Notes under the pieces: model-generated
The model's input: the letters and a program-made list of their open reading frames with translations, nothing else
Databases searched by the model: none
What the model was told of the DNA's origin: nothing
Assembly (NCBI GenBank): GCA_015478655.1
Contig: JADMIJ010000040.1
Location: 1 to 37,371, forward strand
Reading direction: 5' to 3'
DNA length: 37,371 nt
Source of the DNA: Acidimicrobiales bacterium
GTDB lineage: Bacteria; Actinomycetota; Acidimicrobiia; Acidimicrobiales; RAAP-2
Program-made: the position numbers and the translations under genes
In this document: positions 3,097-24,091 of the stretch, one piece after another
How positions within the stretch are numbered: the stretch's first letter is position 1
How the letters are laid out: each line of letters starts with the position of its first letter

Positions 3097-3467
3097 AACC
3101 GTGGCTAGGCAGAATGATAGAGGCCGCGGCCCCCACTGACCATCGGACGCCTCAGGGGCGGACAAGGCCTGTTTTCGTGTATCAGGGCAGGTGGCTCGGC
3201 GATCGGCAAAAGACCCCTTGTCTGCCCGCAGGCGGTAAGCCCTGCCGGCACCACAGCCCCCGAGTCCCGGGCGTCGGGCGCACTGGATCGGGCATCGTCT
3301 GCTGCCCCTACCAACCCAGGTACCGGCTTCAGCATTGAAGCGAGAACAAACGGCTGTTGATTGGCGGATGTGGTCCGCAATTGCGCCCCGAATACAGCCG
3401 TCGGACCGCCCCGGACCGCCGGGCAGGTGGGGCAGGACCGCCTGGGGATTCTGACCCGATCTGGTGT
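3097..3467. other. Intergenic stretch without a convincing gene
   Basis: Between the furA remnant and the exported protein gene I see no reading frame with protein-like character, no tRNA T-loop signature and no riboswitch core I can name. The segment 3180-3310 is GC-rich and could fold, but I cannot assign it. The control region of the old furA-katG unit should lie at the left end. Confidence 0.5.
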
Positions 3468-4307
3468 CTACAGCCCGTTACACGTGATGGTCGGAGCCAG
3501 TTGGATGACTCCTCCTACGACGACCATGGTGACCGGCGGGCAGGATGCGTTCCCGGCGGATGCCCAGAATCGATACCTACCTGGCTTGAGGGTGAGCGTG
3601 TAGTGCCCATCGACGGCTTGGACGGCCATCGCTGGTGATGTGCGGATCACACTTGGCGGGTAGACCGCTTCGTACTGGATGGATCCCGAAATGGGCATTG
3701 GTCCAGTCGGTAGACCTGCCAACTGCGCCGTTCCGTTGACGATTCCGGGAGCTGGCAGTGAGGAGCGCGAGGTGGGCGCCAGCGTGTTGAGGGACCTCTG
3801 TGCAGCGGATCCGTAACCGCTTATCAACACATCTTTCGACGGAACGAACCAAAGGATGCCCGTGGGGGACTGACCTCTCTTTTGCACCACCTCGACATGG
3901 ACCCCATGGACCGTCATCCGACGAATCACGTGCAAATCCTTGGCCCTCGTTGGAGCGATGCTCATCATGACCTCGTGTTGGTCAAATCCGAATGCAGGGC
4001 AGTTCGCGATGAACCGAGGCGGACCGATGGTCAGTGTGCCCGGGAGTTGCCCGAAAGGGCAAGGGCTGAAGTAGGACACGTGCCACGCCCGCGGGACTGA
4101 GAGCTGGAGCCCATAGGCCGAGTGGGCCGTCCATCCTGCCGGAACGACCCCTGGATCGGTCACCGCTTCGGCATCACCTCCTCGTAGGACGGCCGTCAGC
4201 ATGAGAACGACACCGACGATGACAATGACTACCGGTAGGCGCCTGGTCATGAGGCTGACTGGGCTGGTGGCCGCTCGCAGGAGAATCCTCGTTGCTCTCG
4301 TCGTCAT
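3468..4307 (-). CDS. Membrane-anchored exported protein, function unknown
   Basis: Unrecognised 279-residue protein. An Arg-rich N-terminus (MTTRATRILLRAATSPVSLMTRR) is followed by a hydrophobic helix at about residues 25-41 (LPVVIVIVGVVLMLTAVL), which should act as a signal anchor or uncleaved signal with the rest outside. The exported part has two halves: a region with two cysteines near SPCPFG and NCPAFG, and a C-terminal beta-rich segment (DGHYTLTLKPGRYRFWASAG, then CPP and TITCNG) resembling carboxypeptidase-regulatory or transthyretin-like folds. The frame is open further upstream but that extension reads as noise. Start is uncertain: ATG 4307 or ATG 4250; neither has a clear ribosome site. 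Confidence 0.65.
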   Translation of the reverse strand: MTTRATRILLRAATSPVSLMTRRLPVVIVIVGVVLMLTAVLRGGDAEAVTDPGVVPAGWTAHSAYGLQLSVPRAWHVSYFSPCPFGQLPGTLTIGPPRFIANCPAFGFDQHEVMMSIAPTRAKDLHVIRRMTVHGVHVEVVQKRGQSPTGILWFVPSKDVLISGYGSAAQRSLNTLAPTSRSSLPAPGIVNGTAQLAGLPTGPMPISGSIQYEAVYPPSVIRTSPAMAVQAVDGHYTLTLKPGRYRFWASAGNASCPPVTMVVVGGVIQLAPTITCNGL

Positions 4308-4549
4308 TGGGTTTGTCGAAGTACACCCGTGGTCCTCCCGTGCACCACCGGCACTTACATCAACGGATACCGAGCGGGTTCGGTTGACACCCGAGCTGTG
4401 AAATTGCCTGCCAGCGCCTGCGCGGCTCGCCGTGCAGCTTGTCGATGCGGGGCGGGGAAGATGCGGGCAATCTCCCTGGTGGCGGCCCCTCAGCATCCTC
4501 TCGGTGCATTCCCGATACGTTCGACCCCCGACGTGATCGCCTCTTCGTC

Positions 4550-13048: not shown

Positions 13049-13636
13049 TCACGTGAGTGGTCCTCCGGCTGCCGGGCAGGTGACGAGGTGGTCGTTGACA
13101 ATACCGACGGACTGCAGGTACGAGTAGATGATCGTCGAGCCGACGAAGGTGAACCCTCGCCTCTTCATGTCCTTGCCGATGCGGTCCGACAGGTCCGTGC
13201 GAGCAGGCAGATCGGTCATGGATCGAGGTCGGTTGGCAATGGGAGTTCCATCCACCCACCTCCACATGTACTCGGCGAACGAACCGAATTCGTCAACCGT
13301 GGCGAGAAACGCCTGTGCGTTGGTCACTGTCCCCCGGACCTTGAGGCGGTTGCGGACGATGCCGGGATCCTCGAGCAGCTCCGCCAGCTTCGCTTCGCCA
13401 TAGTGGGCGATGGGGTTGGGGTCAAAGCCGTCGAACGCCCGCCGATAGCCGGCTCGCTTGTTGAGGATGGTCAACCAGGAGAGACCCGCTTGCGCCCCCT
13501 CGAGGATCAGCAGTTCGAAGAGATGCCGGTCATCGTGGGACGGGACCCCCCACTCCTCATCGTGGTAGCGCCGCATCGCATCCGAACCCTCGGCCCACGG
13601 GCACCGCACCCCGCCGATTCCACCTGCGTCGCTCAT
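13049..13636 (-). CDS. tag: DNA-3-methyladenine glycosylase I
   Basis: Base-excision repair enzyme that removes 3-methyladenine from alkylated DNA. The 195 residues match the family from RCPWAEGSDAMRRYHDEEWGVPSHDDRHLFELLILEG onward, including AGLSWLTILNKRAGYRRAF. The structural zinc ligands are all present: Cys in RCPW, His in RYHDEEWG, and His and Cys in NDHLVTCP near the C-terminus. Start ATG 13636 is the natural one before GGIGGVRCPW. It is probably cotranscribed with the PPOX gene downstream. Confidence 0.95.
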   Translation of the reverse strand: MSDAGGIGGVRCPWAEGSDAMRRYHDEEWGVPSHDDRHLFELLILEGAQAGLSWLTILNKRAGYRRAFDGFDPNPIAHYGEAKLAELLEDPGIVRNRLKVRGTVTNAQAFLATVDEFGSFAEYMWRWVDGTPIANRPRSMTDLPARTDLSDRIGKDMKRRGFTFVGSTIIYSYLQSVGIVNDHLVTCPAAGGPLT

Positions 13637-15273: not shown

Positions 15274-15401
15274 CCCTCAGCAGCCGACCCTATGGGCCGG
15301 CACCGCTCCCGGACGAATCGCCGTGCCCGCCCCGGACCGCGCTCGCCGCCTATCGTCGGCCCGGGAAGAGTCGAGCGTCGGCCTAAAGGATGGGAATTTC
15401 G

Positions 15402-16748
15402 ATGAGACTGAGTCGACGGCAGCTGCTCGGTGGCGGGTTGGCCGGTGCATCGTTGGTGCTGGGGGCCTGCGGGGGGAACTCGTCCTCTCCGACCACCACC
15501 GCCACCGCGACGAGGAGAGTGCGATCGGCAGGTTCGATGCCTCGACCCAGTCTGGCCGCCGGCACAGACCTGGTGCCACAGATCGAACACTTCGTGGTCG
15601 TGATGATGGAGAACCACTCCTTCGACAACGTGTTGGGACTCATCGGGAGGGGCGACGGGTTCACCATCGGGACCGACGGCCAGCCGACGGCCACCAACCC
15701 CGATGGCCAAGGAAACCTCGTCCATGCATTCCACATGCCGACCGAGTGTGCGACGAACGGCATCGGCAATGACTGGAGGGTGGCACACGAGGCCTACGAC
15801 GGCGGCACCTGCCAGGGATTCGTGACCGGTACGACCGCGGAGGCCATGGGTTATTTCACCAAGGAGGATCTCCCCTTCACCTGCGGGATGGCGGAGACGT
15901 TCCCCATCGGCGATCGGTACTTCTCCTCGGCCATGATTCAGACTGATGGGCAACGCCGGTATCTCATCGCAGGCACGTCCATGGGCCTCATCAACGACAC
16001 CTTCCCCCCTGCGCTACCTCCCAACGGCGTGATCTTCGAGCAGTTCAACAAACACGGGATCACCTGGAAGGACTACTACACGTCACTGCCGACCCTCGGA
16101 GTGTTCCTACCCCTGTTGCAGGACAAGGTGCTCACGCAGGGCCTGGCCCCCATCGACCAGTTCTACCTCGATGCGGCCGCAGGCACGCTTCCCTCCTTCT
16201 GTCTGGTAGAAGAAGACTTCGGACACCAATCGGAGGAGAATCCTCAAGACATCCAGTTCGGCGATCAGTTCGTGGGCAAGGTGGTCGAGGCTGTCATGTC
16301 GAGTCCCAATTGGCCGACCACCATGCTGATCTGGACCTACGACGAACACGGGGGTTACTACGACCATGTCCCTCCGCCGGCCGCACTACCCCCCGACGAC
16401 GTCCTGCCGGTCCTCGGGCCTGGTGACCCACCCGGTGGATTCGACAGATATGGCTTCCGAGTGCCGGCCGGAGTCGCCAGTCCCTACGCCAGGCGGGACT
16501 TCGTGTCGCACACGGTCTACGACCACACCTCGATCCTCAAGACCGTCGAGGAGAAGTGGAACCTCCCCGCCCTCACCCGCCGCGACGCCAACGCCAACAG
16601 TCTCTTCGACATGCTGGACCTCCACAGCAAACCGGCCTTCTTGAAGCCGCCAGTGCTCCCAGCTGCCTCCGATCCCACGGCAAAGTCCGGGTGCCTGAGT
16701 ACTGGGGCAGGCACCATTCCCCCACCTTCAGCCGTCACCAAGGCCTGA
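15402..16748 (+). CDS. Tat-exported lipoprotein phosphoesterase (phospholipase C/AcpA family)
   Basis: 448-residue alkaline-phosphatase-fold hydrolase of the phospholipase C/acid phosphatase AcpA group. The N-terminus is a twin-arginine signal (RLSRRQLLGGG) running into a lipobox LGAC with Cys at about residue 23, so it should be folded in the cytoplasm, exported by Tat and lipid-anchored outside. Catalytic landmarks: FVVVMMENHSFDNVLG near residue 65 and TYDEHGGYYDHVPPP for metal binding, then the SPYARRDFVSHTVYDHTSILKTVEEKW motif. I take ATG 15402 with GGATGGGAA upstream; ATG 15390 is four codons earlier. It likely scavenges phosphate or cleaves phospholipid head groups. Confidence 0.92.
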   Translation: MRLSRRQLLGGGLAGASLVLGACGGNSSSPTTTATATRRVRSAGSMPRPSLAAGTDLVPQIEHFVVVMMENHSFDNVLGLIGRGDGFTIGTDGQPTATNPDGQGNLVHAFHMPTECATNGIGNDWRVAHEAYDGGTCQGFVTGTTAEAMGYFTKEDLPFTCGMAETFPIGDRYFSSAMIQTDGQRRYLIAGTSMGLINDTFPPALPPNGVIFEQFNKHGITWKDYYTSLPTLGVFLPLLQDKVLTQGLAPIDQFYLDAAAGTLPSFCLVEEDFGHQSEENPQDIQFGDQFVGKVVEAVMSSPNWPTTMLIWTYDEHGGYYDHVPPPAALPPDDVLPVLGPGDPPGGFDRYGFRVPAGVASPYARRDFVSHTVYDHTSILKTVEEKWNLPALTRRDANANSLFDMLDLHSKPAFLKPPVLPAASDPTAKSGCLSTGAGTIPPPSAVTKA

Positions 16749-18809: not shown

Positions 18810-19289
18810 TCAGGTCCCGTGGTTAACTGCAGGAGTACCGGGCGCCCGCGCGAAGTCGTCAACCACCCGCTCGAGCGCGCCCGCCAGCTCGCGCAATTCG
18901 GCAGACGTCCATCCGGCAAACGTCTCGGTCACGATGTCATCGGTGGCGGACCGGTAGGCGCCGAAGGCGGCCGTGCCCGCGGGTGTGAGCGTGACGATGG
19001 CAGCCCGCCCGTCGGAGCGGTCCCCTCGGCGGGCCACGTAGCCGTCCTCCACCAGGCGCCGGATCTCGCGACTCACCAGCGGCGGCTCGAGCCCGGTCTG
19101 GCGGGCGATGTCGGTCACCCGCAGCGGGCCCCGGGCGTGGACCGCGGCCAGGATGGCGATACCCGGACGGGAGATCCGGACGCCCGAACGCTCGGCCCGG
19201 ATCCTCGCCGCCTCCCGCCCATTGCCGATCCTCCCCATCCGGGTGATGGCCTGTTCCACCCGACGAAGGTCGTCACGCCGTCGCGCCAT
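18810..19289 (-). CDS. MarR-family transcriptional regulator
   Basis: 159-residue winged-helix regulator. SRPGIAILAAVHARGPLRVTDIARQTGLEPPLVSREIRRLVEDGYVARRGDRSDGRAAIVTLTPAGTAAF is the complete MarR DNA-binding core: helix-turn-helix, recognition helix, then the DxRxxxxxLT wing. Dimerisation helices lie at both ends. It is transcribed away from the four-gene operon starting at 19416, the usual position for a repressor of that operon that responds to its substrate. The 126-base gap between them is noticeably AT-richer than its surroundings and has repeated TATTTGA elements. Confidence 0.93.
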   Translation of the reverse strand: MARRRDDLRRVEQAITRMGRIGNGREAARIRAERSGVRISRPGIAILAAVHARGPLRVTDIARQTGLEPPLVSREIRRLVEDGYVARRGDRSDGRAAIVTLTPAGTAAFGAYRSATDDIVTETFAGWTSAELRELAGALERVVDDFARAPGTPAVNHGT

Positions 19290-19300
19290 TGGGCCGAGGC

Positions 19301-19341
19301 TATACCTATTTGATTGACCAAGTTATTTGACTCGGTACATG
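19301..19341. promoter_or_regulatory. AT-rich divergent control region, candidate MarR operator
   Basis: TATTTGATT (19307-19315) and TATTTGACT (19324-19332) are near-identical direct repeats 17 bases apart, flanking the imperfect dyad TTGATTGACCAA. TTGACC (19314-19319) and TACATG (19336-19341), 16 bases apart, could form the plus-strand promoter, so bound regulator would cover it. The region is strikingly AT-rich for this genome. Confidence 0.5.
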
Positions 19342-19415
19342 ACCTCTGGCAAGGTGACCGTATGCCCAACGGAGGCCATGGCAATGGGTGACCTCATGGG
19401 CAGGGACCGCCTCCG

Positions 19416-20645
19416 ATGACGGAGGGGCGGCGGCGCATCCGGTACGCCGGAAGCGTGCACGACGAGCGGGAGATCGCCGCCGTGGTCGAGGTGCTGCGCG
19501 ACGGCCCCACCGGCCTGCGCATCGGCCGTCGCACCCGCCAGTTCGAGGAGCGGGTCGCCTCCCTCATGGGCAAGCGTCGGGGTGTGATGTGCAACTCCGG
19601 CTCGTCGGCGCTGTACCTGGCCATCGAACTGCTCGGGCTCGAGCCTGGCGACGAGGTGATCACCCCGGCCCTGACCTTCTCCACCGACATCGCCGCCATC
19701 CTCCGGTCCGGTGCGGTGCCGGTCTTCGTGGACGTCGAGCCCGACACGTTCAATATGGATGTAGGGGCCGTCGAGGACATGGTGGGGCCGAGGACCCGAG
19801 CCATCCTGGCCCCGAACCTGATCGGCAATGCGCCTGACTGGGACCGGCTCCGAGACCTCGCCGATGTCCACCGCCTCCAGCTCGTCGAGGACTCCTGTGA
19901 TGCCCTCGGGCTCACGCTGGGGGGCCGGCCCACCGGAGCCCGGGCGGACATCTCGGTCACCAGCTTTGCCCTCTCGCACATCATCACCGCGGCCGGTACC
20001 GGGGGGATGATCTGCCTCGACGATGCCGAAATGCTGGATCGGTGCCTCGTGCTCAGGCGGTGGGGACGGCGATCGGAGGTGCAGCTGTTCGGATCGCGCC
20101 GGGATAGCGGCGACCGCTTCTTCTCCGACCTCGACGGGATGGAGTACGACGACCTCTTCATCTTCGACGAGGTGGGCTGGAACTTCGAGCCATCGGAGGT
20201 GTCGGCGGCATTCGGGCTGGTGCAACTGGACAAGCTCGATGAGAACCTGGCCCGCCGGAAGCGCAACTTCCAGATCCTCTTCGAGCACCTGGGGATGCGC
20301 CCGGATCTGTTCGTGCGACCCCGCACCCTTACCGGCCTGGACACGGCATGGCACATGTTCCCGTTCCTCGTCCAGGAGGACGGCCTGCGGCGTAGCGCCC
20401 TCCAGCAATGGATGGAGTCCCGCGGGGTCGACACCCGCATGGTGTGGAGTGGCAATGCAACAAGGCAGCCGGCATTCCGGAACCGACCACACCGGGTACC
20501 GAACGGGGGACTTCCCAACGCCGACGCGGTGATGGCCCGGGGCTTGGTCCTCCCGTGCAATCATGGTCTCGAGGACGAGGACATGGCGTACATCTGCGAG
20601 ACGCTTGACCAGTTTGTGGAACAGACGGGCGAGATGGCTTCGTGA
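19416..20645 (+). CDS. DegT/DnrJ/EryC1/StrS-fold PLP/PMP enzyme with His at the lysine position (ColD/RfbH-like)
   Basis: 409-residue fold-type I enzyme of the sugar aminotransferase family. CNSGSSALYLAIELLGLEPGDEVITPALTFSTDIAAI and the pyridine-pairing Asp in LVEDSCDALG are normal. The Schiff-base lysine position is His188 (TSFALSHIITAAGTGG), as in the 3-dehydrases ColD and E1/RfbH, which use a histidine and PMP chemistry. The segment from RRWGRRSEVQLFG to FDEVGWNFEPSEVSAAFGLVQLDKL also follows the E1/RfbH pattern, but the four iron-sulfur cysteines of E1 are absent, as in ColD. A dehydrase or dehydratase, not an aminotransferase, is therefore expected. It overlaps the next gene by four bases and faces MarR; no sugar genes are nearby. 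Confidence 0.85.
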   Translation: MTEGRRRIRYAGSVHDEREIAAVVEVLRDGPTGLRIGRRTRQFEERVASLMGKRRGVMCNSGSSALYLAIELLGLEPGDEVITPALTFSTDIAAILRSGAVPVFVDVEPDTFNMDVGAVEDMVGPRTRAILAPNLIGNAPDWDRLRDLADVHRLQLVEDSCDALGLTLGGRPTGARADISVTSFALSHIITAAGTGGMICLDDAEMLDRCLVLRRWGRRSEVQLFGSRRDSGDRFFSDLDGMEYDDLFIFDEVGWNFEPSEVSAAFGLVQLDKLDENLARRKRNFQILFEHLGMRPDLFVRPRTLTGLDTAWHMFPFLVQEDGLRRSALQQWMESRGVDTRMVWSGNATRQPAFRNRPHRVPNGGLPNADAVMARGLVLPCNHGLEDEDMAYICETLDQFVEQTGEMAS

Positions 20646-21874
20646 TCCCTCCGGCAGCCACCCAGCCGAAGGGTGGGGAGCGCTACACCTTGATATCCAG
20701 CGACTGCCACGCCGGCGGGAACCACCAGATGTACCGCGACTACCTCGAGGCGCGGTATCTGGATCAATTCGACCACTGGCGATCGCAGTACTCGAACCCG
20801 TTCCGCGATCTCACCAACGACACCCGCGACCGCAACTGGAACGACGAACGCCGGATCGCCGAGCAGGAGGCCGACGGCTGCGTGGCCGAGGTGGTCTTCC
20901 CCAACACCATTCCCCCGTTCTTCCCGACAGGCGCCGTGGTGGCCCGCCCGCCCACGCCCGAGGAGTACGAGCTGCGCCTGGTGGGGCTGCGGGCCCACAA
21001 CCGGTGGTTGGCAGACTGGTGCGCCGCCCACGCCGTCCGCAGGGCGGGCATCGGCCAGATCCTCCTCAACGATCTCGACGATGCCATCGCCGACGTCCGG
21101 TGGTGCGCGGACCACGGACTCCGTGGCGGCGTGCTCCTGCCGGGGGTCCCCGACGACATGGCCCATCTGCTGCCGCTCTACGCCCCGGCGCTCGACCGGC
21201 TGTGGGCGGTCTGCGAGGAGCTCGGTGTGGTGGTGAACGCCCACTCGGGAGGATCGGGGATGCCGGACTACGGCCCCTACCGGGCGGCCTCTCAGCTGTG
21301 GATCGTCGAGACGTCATTCTTCTCCCGCCGACCACTCAGCCACCTGCTGGTCGGTGGGGTCTTCGAGCGCTTCCCCGACCTGCGGCTGGTGGTGGTGGAG
21401 CAGGGCGCCTCATGGATCCCGCCGCTGCTCGACCAGCTCGACGGCTACTACGAGCAGATCCGGTCGGTCGGCCGGATCGGCGAGCTCAAGTACTCCCCCG
21501 ACGAGGTGCCGCCGATACGCCCGAGCGAGTACTTCTCCCGCAACTGCTGGGTGACGGCCAGCTTCCCCTCGCCGGTTGAAGCGGAGAGCAGGCACCGGAT
21601 CGGGATCGATCGATTCCTGTGGGGAAGTGACTACCCTCACGACGAGTCGAGTTTCCCCAACACCCGCGAGGCGCTGCGACGCTCGTTCGCAGGCGCCGGC
21701 GAGGCCGAGTTCCGCCAGTTGCTCGGGGGCAACGCAGCCGAGGTATACGGATTCGATCTCGAGGCTCTGCGACCCCGTGCGGACGCGGTCGGGCCCACCG
21801 TTGCCGAATTGGCCGAGCCCTACGCCGGCGGAGTTCCCGCAGGCAACCGCAGCCCCGCGTTCACCCGGCCATGA
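20642..21874 (+). CDS. Amidohydrolase-2 family metal-dependent hydrolase/decarboxylase
   Basis: 410-residue TIM-barrel protein of the amidohydrolase-2 group (relatives include ACMSD-type decarboxylases and ring-cleavage hydrolases). LISSDCHAGG supplies the N-terminal metal motif in a D-x-H form, VVNAHSGGSG a second histidine, LVVVEQGASWIPPLLDQLD the typical strand-six region, and FLWGSDYPHDESSFPNT the C-terminal metal aspartate. GTG 20642 overlaps the upstream stop (GTGA), and its own stop overlaps the next ATG, so three proteins are made in tight coupling. The substrate is likely that of the adjoining ColD-like enzyme. Confidence 0.9.
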   Translation: MIPPAATQPKGGERYTLISSDCHAGGNHQMYRDYLEARYLDQFDHWRSQYSNPFRDLTNDTRDRNWNDERRIAEQEADGCVAEVVFPNTIPPFFPTGAVVARPPTPEEYELRLVGLRAHNRWLADWCAAHAVRRAGIGQILLNDLDDAIADVRWCADHGLRGGVLLPGVPDDMAHLLPLYAPALDRLWAVCEELGVVVNAHSGGSGMPDYGPYRAASQLWIVETSFFSRRPLSHLLVGGVFERFPDLRLVVVEQGASWIPPLLDQLDGYYEQIRSVGRIGELKYSPDEVPPIRPSEYFSRNCWVTASFPSPVEAESRHRIGIDRFLWGSDYPHDESSFPNTREALRRSFAGAGEAEFRQLLGGNAAEVYGFDLEALRPRADAVGPTVAELAEPYAGGVPAGNRSPAFTRP

Positions 21875-22770
21875 CCGGTCCCGGCCCTGGTCCCGCAGCC
21901 CGGCCCGGTCCCACCACGGTTCGGTTCGCCGGCCGGCGGGCCATCGTGACCGGCGCCAGCCGCGGCATCGGTGCCGGCGTCGCCGTGCGCCTGGCGGCGG
22001 AGGGTGCCGACGTGGCTATCGTGGCCCGGACATTGGATCACCATCCGAGCCTACCCGGCAGCCTGCGGGCGACCGCAGCACGGATGGCCCCGTTCGGTGG
22101 GCGGGTCGTCACCGTGGTCGCCGACCTCTCCGACGATGATGACCGCGGCCGCGTCGTCCCTGAGGCTGTGGCCGGGCTCGGTGGGCCGGCCGACATCCTG
22201 GTCAACAATGCCGCCGCCGCCATCTACCAGCCCCTGGCCGATTTCCCTCTGCGTCGTCGGCTGCTCACCTTCGTCCTCAACGTCGAGGCCCCCCTCGACC
22301 TCATGCAGGCCGTCCTGCCGTCGATGCGCGCCGCCGGCCGGGGGTGGATCGTCAACCTCTCCAGCGCCACCGCCCGTCCACGACCCGGTCCTCCCTTCGT
22401 GAAGGGCGCGCCTCCCACCATGGCCGTGTACGGAGCCTCCAAGGCGGCTCTGAACCGCCTCACCAACGCACTGGCCGACGAGGTCTGGGGTGAGGGCATC
22501 CGGGTGAACACCGTGGAGCCGCGGGCGGCGGTCATGACCGAGGGGGCCACTGCCCTCATCGGCGACATGGCCGAGGACCGAGTCGAATCACTGGAGACCA
22601 TGGTGGAGGCGGCCGTGGCCCTCTGCGACTGCCCGGCCGAGCGCACCGGCCAGGTGGTCGTGAGCCTCGATCTGCTCGCCATGCTCGATCGACCGGTATT
22701 GTCCCTCGATGCGCGACAGACGATGGCGACCTCTCCTGCGGGTTCCGAGCCCGAGCCCTCATCGGCGTGA
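21871..22770 (+). CDS. Short-chain dehydrogenase/reductase
   Basis: 299-residue Rossmann-fold NAD(P)-dependent oxidoreductase. Cofactor loop VTGASRGIGAGVAV, NNAAA in place of NNAG, catalytic Ser in NLSSATA and the YGASK motif with Tyr and Lys. An insertion (RPRPGPPFVKGAPPTM) separates Ser from Tyr more than usual, and about 30 residues of low-complexity tail follow the last strand. ATG 21871 overlaps the upstream stop (ATGA). Third gene of the MarR-facing operon. Confidence 0.92.
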   Translation: MTGPGPGPAARPGPTTVRFAGRRAIVTGASRGIGAGVAVRLAAEGADVAIVARTLDHHPSLPGSLRATAARMAPFGGRVVTVVADLSDDDDRGRVVPEAVAGLGGPADILVNNAAAAIYQPLADFPLRRRLLTFVLNVEAPLDLMQAVLPSMRAAGRGWIVNLSSATARPRPGPPFVKGAPPTMAVYGASKAALNRLTNALADEVWGEGIRVNTVEPRAAVMTEGATALIGDMAEDRVESLETMVEAAVALCDCPAERTGQVVVSLDLLAMLDRPVLSLDARQTMATSPAGSEPEPSSA

Positions 22771-22861: not shown

Positions 22862-24091
22862 GTGGACTTCGACGACACCGCCGAGGAGGCCGCGTTCCGA
22901 GCAGAGGCCCGGGCATTCCTGGTGCAGCATGCGCCACCCCGGACCTCGGACACCACCAGCCGCCTGCTTCGCCACGATCCCGACCCGGAGGTGGTGGCCG
23001 AGCACGTCCGCCGATGCAAGGAGTGGCAACACACCCTGCACGCCAACGGCTGGGCCGGCATCACCTGGCCCGAGGAATTCGGCGGGCGGGGCGGAACCGG
23101 TGTGGAGCAGGCCATCTTCGACGCCGAACAGTCATCGTTCGACGTGTCCACCGGGGTGTTCGCGGTCGGCATCGGGATGGTCGGACCGACGCTCATCGCC
23201 CACGGCAGCCAGCAACACAAGGACAGGTACCTCGGGCCCCTCCTCCGTGGCGAAGAGATCTGGTGCCAGCTCTTCAGCGAGCCGGGCGCCGGCTCGGACC
23301 TGGCCGGACTGTCCACCAAGGCGGTCCTCGACGGCGACGAGTGGGTGGTGGACGGACAGAAGGTGTGGACCAGCGGCGCCCAGCACAGCGACATGGCCAT
23401 CCTGTTGACCCGCACCGACACCTCGGTGCCCAAGCACGCCGGCATCACGTACCTGGTGGTCGACATGGCCTCACCCGGCATCGACGTCCGGCCCCTCCGC
23501 CAGATCAACGGTTCCTCGCACTTCAACGAGGTGTTCCTCTCCGGCGTCCGGATCCCGGCCGGCAATGTCGTCGGGGAGGTCGGTGACGGCTGGCGGGTGG
23601 CCCGGACCACGCTGTCCAACGAACGCGGCCTCATCGGAGGTGGGGGTGCCGCGGCCGCCGGCTTCGCCGACGTCCTGGATCTGGCCCAGCGTTCGGGCCG
23701 GAGCGCCGATCCCCTCGCCCGCCAGAGCCTGGCCTCCCTGTTCGTCCGGACCGAGATCCTCCGGTTCCTGGGTCTCCGGGCCCGCACCGCGGCGAGCCGG
23801 GGGCAGGCGCCGGGCGCGGAGAGCTCGGTGATGAAGCTGGCCTACTCCCAGCACGCCGCCCTCACCGGCAACCTGGTGTTGGACCTCCAGGGGCCGTCGG
23901 GGGCCCTCTCCGGCAAGTCGGCGGCCGATCAGGGCTTCTGGCAGCAGCAGTTCCTCGGGCAGTGGTCCGTGCGCATCGGCGGGGGCACGGACCAGATCCA
24001 GCGCAATGTGATCGGTGAGCGGGTCCTCGGCCTGCCGCCCGAAGCCAGGGTTGACCGAGGCCGGCCGTTCAGCGAGCGTACCGAGGCCTGA
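22862..24091 (+). CDS. Acyl-CoA dehydrogenase, catalytic Glu position changed to Gly
   Basis: 409-residue flavoprotein of the actinobacterial FadE type. FAD and substrate motifs are standard: EEIWCQLFSEPGAGSDLAGL, DEWVVDGQKVWTSGAQHSDM, FNEVFLSGVRIPAGNVVG. The C-terminus reads RIGGGTDQIQRNVIGERVLGLP: the MCAD-type catalytic glutamate is replaced by glycine (about residue 373), unlike the homologue at 6582-7778. It may use a base from another helix, as in LCAD/IVD, or be the non-catalytic partner of a heteromer. GTG 22862 has GGGAGG upstream. Last gene of the operon, 91 bases after the SDR. Confidence 0.92.
   Translation: MDFDDTAEEAAFRAEARAFLVQHAPPRTSDTTSRLLRHDPDPEVVAEHVRRCKEWQHTLHANGWAGITWPEEFGGRGGTGVEQAIFDAEQSSFDVSTGVFAVGIGMVGPTLIAHGSQQHKDRYLGPLLRGEEIWCQLFSEPGAGSDLAGLSTKAVLDGDEWVVDGQKVWTSGAQHSDMAILLTRTDTSVPKHAGITYLVVDMASPGIDVRPLRQINGSSHFNEVFLSGVRIPAGNVVGEVGDGWRVARTTLSNERGLIGGGGAAAAGFADVLDLAQRSGRSADPLARQSLASLFVRTEILRFLGLRARTAASRGQAPGAESSVMKLAYSQHAALTGNLVLDLQGPSGALSGKSAADQGFWQQQFLGQWSVRIGGGTDQIQRNVIGERVLGLPPEARVDRGRPFSERTEA

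Follow-up and report, generated by a model that had tools for sequence, protein, structure and literature searches.

The gene at positions 19416-20645 (+ strand) of the 37,371-nucleotide stretch of Acidimicrobiales DNA analysed here (the window) starts with ATG and encodes a 409-residue protein of the DegT fold, a homologue of the His-type (E1/ColD-like) PMP dehydrases. Judged by sequence, it belongs to a real and conserved clade of such homologues that lacks the E1 Fe-S cluster and lies outside sugar clusters; the identity of this clade, and its relationship to E1 and ColD, are well supported. We suggest, with confidence and doubt about evenly balanced, that a lineage of CDP-hexose 3-dehydrases without the E1 cluster moved into small catabolic operons, with chemistry like that of ColD.

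The His-type PMP dehydrases E1, ColD and SpnQ make deoxysugars for surface polysaccharides and antibiotics and, in the excerpts of the source consulted, share their first steps: PMP condenses with the 4-keto group, the histidine deprotonates the cofactor and the 3-hydroxyl is expelled (PMC8987622). According to the same excerpts, E1 and SpnQ then take electrons via an Fe-S cluster; ColD, which has no such cluster, hydrolyses the intermediate, and glutamate regenerates PMP. A ColD-type cycle is also run by Campylobacter enzymes (excerpts of PMC10440746). SpnQ, the spinosyn 3-dehydrase of an actinomycete, resembles the window protein in its His-type PMP chemistry and differs from it in having an Fe-S motif and a dTDP-sugar substrate, a comparison made by its description in the excerpts of PMC8987622 and not by sequence. 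In the open-access literature searched, we found no description of a catabolic His-type PMP dehydrase.

Over its full length the window protein matches PF01041 (DegT_DnrJ_EryC1; 284.5 bits against a Pfam gathering score of 19.8), and its closest solved relative is E1 (3bcx; 1.2e-57, residues 4-400 aligned). As originally predicted, a histidine, His188 (codon at 19977-19979, + strand), replaces the PLP lysine. It falls in the column of E1 His220, which is His in the wild type (3bcx) and Lys in the H220K mutant (3bb8), and of ColD His188, which is His in 2gms and Asn and Lys in the mutants 3b8x and 3gr9, respectively. All 74 clade rows of the alignment have His in this cofactor column, and none has Lys. 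The 35 rows outside this clade and its sister clade (see below) comprise 23 with Lys and 12, of the E1 and ColD types, with His; the Lys, E1 and ColD types were assigned from residue, motif and PDB matches, and the Lys group of the motif comparison was picked by its Lys, so that its 20/20 Lys is no independent test. A single-gene artefact was rejected because 73 relatives carry the same residue. Also invariant in the 74 rows are Asp159, Ser183, Trp216-Gly-Arg218, Ser220, Glu221, Trp312 and Gly346-Asn347-Arg350, the last group forming the GNxxR motif (residues 346-350; 20451-20465, + strand) that is common to E1/RfbH and present in 4/4 E1-type rows. Asn256 is kept in 73 of the 74; together with D159 and S183, it presumably marks a cofactor ligand position.

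The gene recurs in many genomes, as these 73 relatives show. A contig scan of genomes kept 80 loci, 52 of which (L006-L057) code for relatives with a BLAST identity of at least 50%, the other 28 being at 33% or less. Within the order, 40 of 148 genomes gave a match at 1e-30, and 19 (the window's genome counted) have a copy that is at least 49% identical; a sample of the phylum gave matches at 1e-90 in 6 of 296 genomes, including a single genome from outside the order. Among the best 60 of 583 matches in plasmid records, 25 were at 45.6-57.2% identity and 35, mostly annotated RfbH, at no more than 37.3%. The clade alignment held 71 members at first and later 74, namely the window protein plus 73 relatives that are 48-71% identical over the alignment. 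Record titles and kinship labels assign most of these to Actinomycetota (Acidimicrobiia above all) and Myxococcota, and some to Chloroflexota and Pseudomonadota MAGs. Left out of the alignments were L011, the genes of L050 and L057, which are truncated where their contigs end, and any gene already present under another locus number; in L011 (645-1955) the DegT gene splits into two ORFs, which makes it either a pseudogene or a product of misassembly. L018, a contig whose bin is labelled Bifidobacterium breve, has a DegT gene almost identical to that of L015, a Lake Baikal Acidimicrobiia MAG (end branches of 0.013 and 0.012 in the first tree below), and is probably a mislabelled MAG. Another contig (L128, 3098-6936) carries two clade members with a P450 gene between them.

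Cysteines C193, C251, C253 and C261 of E1 are those that we take to be the cluster ligands (motif CX57CXCX7C), a role with which their conservation in all seven RfbH-type rows agrees. The original prediction that these cysteines are missing stood for three of them, S220, V222 and S231 of the window protein replacing C251, C253 and C261, and failed for C193, which is kept as C161. The loss of all four was thus rejected, the C193 column being kept and the C257 column being conserved in one of the seven RfbH-type rows. Cys occupies the C193 column in 66 of the 74 clade rows (including the window's), in 3/7 sister rows and in 5/5 ColD-type rows. At the C251, C253 and C261 columns, in contrast, no clade row of the alignment has Cys (0/74); Ser stands at C251 in every one, and any Cys at all within residues 216-240 occurs in a single row. 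With three of the four cysteines that define E1/RfbH gone from the window protein and its clade, an E1-type cluster is unexpected there. The loop itself, from WGR up to G226 (WGRRSEVQLFG, residues 216-226; 20061-20093, + strand), is kept in the clade with S220 and V222 in place of C251 and C253; it is absent in the Lys types and mostly absent in ColD-type rows.

E1/RfbH (3bcx, CDP-6-deoxy-L-threo-D-glycero-4-hexulose-3-dehydrase) is the best match of the window protein both in sequence (1.2e-57) and in structure (TM 0.89), and shares with it the His at the cofactor, the WGR loop, the GNxxRQP motif and a Cys in the C193 column. It differs in possessing C251, C253 and C261, in lacking an extra residue after the His and in its rfbF/rfbG neighbours. 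Against the NCBIfam RfbH equivalog the window protein scored 285.1 bits, below the cut-off of 423, whereas the RfbH controls L138 and L156 scored 691.5 and 729.1. A plain RfbH was therefore rejected by score, cysteines and neighbours. ColD (2gms, GDP-4-keto-6-deoxymannose-3-dehydratase), a maker of surface sugars, shares His188 and, throughout the five ColD-type rows, the Cys in the C193 column; in having the His and no cluster the window protein fits ColD as far as its residues tell, although, unlike the window protein, ColD-type rows are without WGR and most of the S220-G226 loop. Because E1 C251, C253 and C261 are absent from 74/74 rows, a ColD rather than an E1 route is favoured, and the window protein probably works like ColD. 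Membership thus fails for E1/RfbH on cysteines, score and context, and for ColD on the tree.

An AlphaFold2 model built from 52 aligned sequences (mean pLDDT 93.6, pTM 0.92) gave E1 chains (3bcx, 3bb8; TM 0.89) as its top three Foldseek matches, followed by GDP-perosamine synthase (3bn1, TM 0.85), with ColD (2gms) also at TM 0.85. GDP-perosamine synthase and other Lys-type sugar aminotransferases are like the window protein in the modelled fold and have Lys at the cofactor instead; dehydrase and aminotransferase are not separable by fold alone. The DegT phylogeny that had been called for was run twice, and in both trees the window protein lay with E1 and ColD, outside the 20 and 21 Lys-type rows sampled. 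In tree 1 (99 rows, 20 of them Lys-type aminotransferases), the window's clade formed one side of a branch with 100/100 support; the order of E1, ColD and the clade was unresolved, and a long-branch warning named E1 and the clade. Tree 2 (85 rows) added plasmid members and used 21 Lys-type rows as outgroup; thinning at 80% identity left 42 rows of the clade, to which 3 new ones were added, and L060 and L110 were omitted for their long branches. The His types (E1, ColD and kin) split from the Lys types at 100/99 in tree 1 and 100/100 in tree 2. Rooted on the Lys outgroup, tree 2 separated the ColD type, the E1 type and a pair made up of a sister clade (7 rows, 100/99) and the window's clade (45 rows, 99/96), joined at 100/100. 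The join of E1 with this pair was weak (86/66), so that the order of ColD and E1 is tentative. ColD-type rows formed a clade of their own (100/97 in tree 1, 100/96 in tree 2) that does not include the window protein. The predicted assignment to PMP dehydrases rather than aminotransferases is thus supported by residue and tree, and an ordinary sugar aminotransferase, in which a Lys forms the aldimine, was rejected because His fills the cofactor column (74/74) and the clade lies outside the Lys-type branch. Two loci from the same order (L108 and L113) represent a further His-type group, with motifs SFYYAHHLTT and GGGNQxRQP, that joins the ColD type in both trees via a very long branch of about 3 changes per column.

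The sister clade consists of seven alphaproteobacterial proteins (L145, L146, L147, L148, L149, L151 and L152) from Sinorhizobium, Ensifer, Roseibium, Palleronia and Leisingera replicons. Like the window's clade, they have the His, a Ser at E1 C251 and no Cys at C251, C253 or C261. Unlike it, their genes lie directly behind rfbF-rfbG in 7/7 loci, within polysaccharide clusters; the figure for the window's clade is 0/73 in the flank available up to 4 kb (phmmer, seeded in both cases with rfbF and rfbG of annotated sister-clade records). In the Palleronia, Roseibium and Leisingera records, the sister gene is followed by methyltransferase, oxidoreductase and glycosyltransferase genes; three annotated sister-clade records are labelled aminotransferase. 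The sister proteins are predicted to act as CDP-hexose 3-dehydrases independently of an Fe-S cluster or a reductase. Because a clade with equal cysteine loss sits in CDP-sugar clusters, such loss does not imply a catabolic setting, and a catabolic role for the entire group lacking these cysteines was rejected.

No sugar genes lie beside the DegT gene of the window, just as had been predicted. Instead, it opens an operon of overlapping genes for the DegT protein, an Amidohydro_2 family hydrolase (20642-21874, + strand; PF04909) and an SDR oxidoreductase (21871-22770, + strand; PF00106), in which the DegT stop and amidohydrolase start overlap as GTGA (20642-20645) and the amidohydrolase stop and SDR start as ATGA (21871-21874). 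An acyl-CoA dehydrogenase gene follows 91 bases past the SDR gene (22862-24091, + strand). Divergent from the operon is a MarR-family regulator gene (18810-19289, - strand), and 126 bases (19290-19415) form the divergent promoter region. A convincing palindromic operator was not found in 19280-19425, where two arm pairs of 9-10 bases lie 32 and 69 apart. Pfam matches confirmed the amidohydrolase, SDR, acyl-CoA dehydrogenase and MarR assignments of the original prediction, and the partners look catabolic. The closest solved structures to the amidohydrolase, one of 20 Amidohydro_2 matches in the window's genome, are DitZ (8uyr) and PtmU3 (6omp); the latter, which we take to be a diterpenoid thioesterase, hints at terpenoid or CoA-bound substrates. 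Two structures match the SDR at 1e-25 or better, 3sc4 and HSDL2 (3kvo). A window ORF at 15390-16745 has a homologue in L122 (9422-10762), both within a few kb of a DegT gene, and a second such pair (window 13052-13636, L122 10860-11489) indicates wider synteny between the two genomes.

The absence of sugar genes extends across the clade. Apart from the missing rfbF/rfbG, a sugar-nucleotide or glycosyltransferase seed match within 4 kb was found in one of the 73 clade loci (L120, a weak RmlA match of 43 bits), flanks of at least 4 kb on both sides being available in 46 of the 73. By comparison, 5 of 6 RfbH-type controls (L138, L139, L153, L156 and L157) have sugar-nucleotide genes within this distance. 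In the sixth, L140, the nearest sugar match is rfbF-like and about 5.7 kb off, which shows that RfbH genes are not always beside sugar genes. Within 4 kb of the DegT gene in 70 clade loci we counted SDR in 38, Amidohydro_2 in 19, MarR in 15 (on the DegT strand in many), P450 in 10, zinc ADH in 9 and acyl-CoA dehydrogenase in 3, on labels from single-seed phmmer searches of ORFs, which miss divergent members, and with SDRs common anyway. None of the sampled families occurred within 4 kb in 10 of the 70, some of which have short flanks; MAG contigs and plasmid annotation are also incomplete. Two RfbH controls scanned alongside add nothing to these counts. In the same loci, SDR (15.4 vs 5.1 per 100 kb), Amidohydro_2 (6.9 vs 1.7) and MarR (5.0 vs 0) genes were denser near the DegT gene (0-2 kb) than far from it (4.5-7 kb). 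There was no enrichment near the DegT gene of acyl-CoA dehydrogenase (0.4 near vs 1.3 far) or AMP-binding genes (0.8 vs 1.3).

Nine distinct loci (the window, L011, L014, L016, L019, L030, L036, L120 and L135) combine the DegT gene with both a window-type amidohydrolase (at least 48% identity) and a window-type SDR (at least 44%). The order of the three genes varies and they are sometimes on opposite strands, which argues for a functional linkage. Extrapolated starts place the amidohydrolase at the DegT stop, or barely within the DegT gene, in the window, L007, L011, L014 and L122, and 133 bases past the stop in L057. It lies upstream of the DegT gene in L030, L035, L036, L120, L126 and L130, and on the opposite strand in L016, L019, L042 and L135. 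For the SDR, such a start at the DegT stop or barely within the DegT gene is seen in 13 distinct loci, repeats of one gene being counted once. A survey of the DegT-amidohydrolase overlap across genomes, as had been proposed, therefore found it kept locally and not conserved broadly; as a conserved unit it was rejected, DegT/SDR pairing being commoner and gene order varied.

It was also of interest where a sugar nucleotide might come from. A CDP-glucose 4,6-dehydratase above 150 bits, a line that we chose, was found in one of 20 clade genomes (G113, 450 bits); the next best match had 103 bits, and the best in the window's genome 73. The curated cut-off of 278 bits is too strict here, because RfbH-type genomes scored 174 and 184 bits, and a further one (G090) only 106. 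Glucose-1-phosphate cytidylyltransferase exceeded its cut-off in 4/20 clade genomes (G019, G042, G077 and G113), whereas G000 reached 195 bits against a cut-off of 300 and also has generic NDP-sugar epimerase-like matches. As the window assembly is 92.9% complete, the absence of sugar genes is no proof, and with sugar-nucleotide-type genes elsewhere in the window's genome an NDP-sugar substrate could still be made in trans.

The view that the enzyme is still an NDP-sugar 3-dehydrase, its sugar genes elsewhere and its operon neighbours either incidental or finishing a deoxysugar, draws on these matches in G000, on the CDP-sugar clusters of the sister clade, on the retained E1-like GNxxR and W312 and on the distance from sugar genes seen for the control L140. 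We nevertheless think it unlikely, given that within 4 kb rfbF/rfbG occur in 0/73 clade loci and any sugar seed match in 1/73, that 19/20 clade genomes lack a CDP-glucose 4,6-dehydratase match above 150 bits, and that the linkage to amidohydrolase and SDR recurs in rearranged form. We would give somewhat less credence to a His-type transaminase that aminates an SDR-made ketone. Its precedent is SpnQ, a His enzyme that can use glutamate without a reductase and has aminotransferase activity under those conditions; E1 and ColD are without such activity under similar conditions (both from the excerpts of PMC8987622), and the aminotransferase Lys is never present in the clade. If a CoA-bound or alicyclic ketone underwent some other PMP/PLP chemistry, such as a dehydration with no net reduction, an isomerisation or a C-C cleavage, the analogy to E1/ColD would hold for the cofactor and not for the product; this alternative seems to us improbable to the same degree. 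It could explain why A185, F257 and E258, some of them close to His188, are specific to the clade, and why MaoC hydratase and SDR genes precede the DegT gene in operons of Myxococcota-type loci. One extra residue between His188 and GG, found in 74/74 clade and 7/7 sister rows vs 0/12 E1- and ColD-type rows, might seem to favour it too; the longer turn is, however, common to the CDP-sugar sister clade and, at equal length, to 10/23 Lys-type rows, and is therefore no pointer to a new reaction. For the same reason it was rejected as a mark of the clade.

The recruitment of a cluster-free CDP-hexose 3-dehydrase into catabolism remains our preferred reading, to which the gene context points. The original prediction of a new catabolic use of E1/ColD chemistry is partly supported: the partners look catabolic, and the catabolic role is read from context. 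Variable neighbours, the lack of enrichment of acyl-CoA dehydrogenase and AMP-binding genes and the weak E1 node (86/66) count against it. More specifically, and tentatively, the clade may be a widespread catabolic family that uses PMP and glutamate to strip an α-hydroxyl reductively from a non-sugar ketone, which might be alicyclic, terpenoid-like or CoA-bound. We infer the catalytic steps, the glutamate donor, the substrate class and the roles of the neighbours as follows. Glutamate would aminate bound PLP to PMP; the operon's SDR would make an α-hydroxyketone, possibly from a diol; and PMP would condense with its ketone. His188 would then take the cofactor proton and the α-hydroxyl would leave. 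Because there is no cluster to supply electrons, hydrolysis of the enamine, as in ColD, would yield PLP and release the deoxygenated ketone together with ammonia, and the amidohydrolase would process the ketone.

If this is true, a large clade in degradation-type operons would extend this C-O cleavage chemistry to catabolism, and proteins filed as aminotransferases would gain a testable reaction. The clade might also be a source of deoxygenases that work with neither Fe-S cluster nor reductase. The CDP-sugar sister clade would serve as a bridge, both for the change of substrate and for the question of whether the E1 cluster was gained or was lost in this lineage.

The neighbour families differ among subclades and include MaoC-SDR, Gfo/Idh/MocA-SDR, P450, SMP-30, Opp transporter and FMN_dh genes. 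In L127, the neighbours are an FMN dehydrogenase and a 3-ketosteroid-dehydrogenase-like flavoprotein, the latter below its family cut-off. These hints disagree on any one substrate, and the family may have spread to several. Relatives in L158 and on plasmid pLRE138 of Rhodococcus erythropolis R138 (L144; R138 homologue H351_RS30465) lie near genes for oligopeptide-type ABC transporters. Some 8-10 kb upstream of the Rhodococcus copy there are, in addition, iolC, Gfo/Idh/MocA and sugar-isomerase genes; as R138 is a named strain, it may be open to genetics. In L006, a gene for a Cas_GSU0053 CRISPR-associated protein (3190-4467, - strand) adjoins the clade member.
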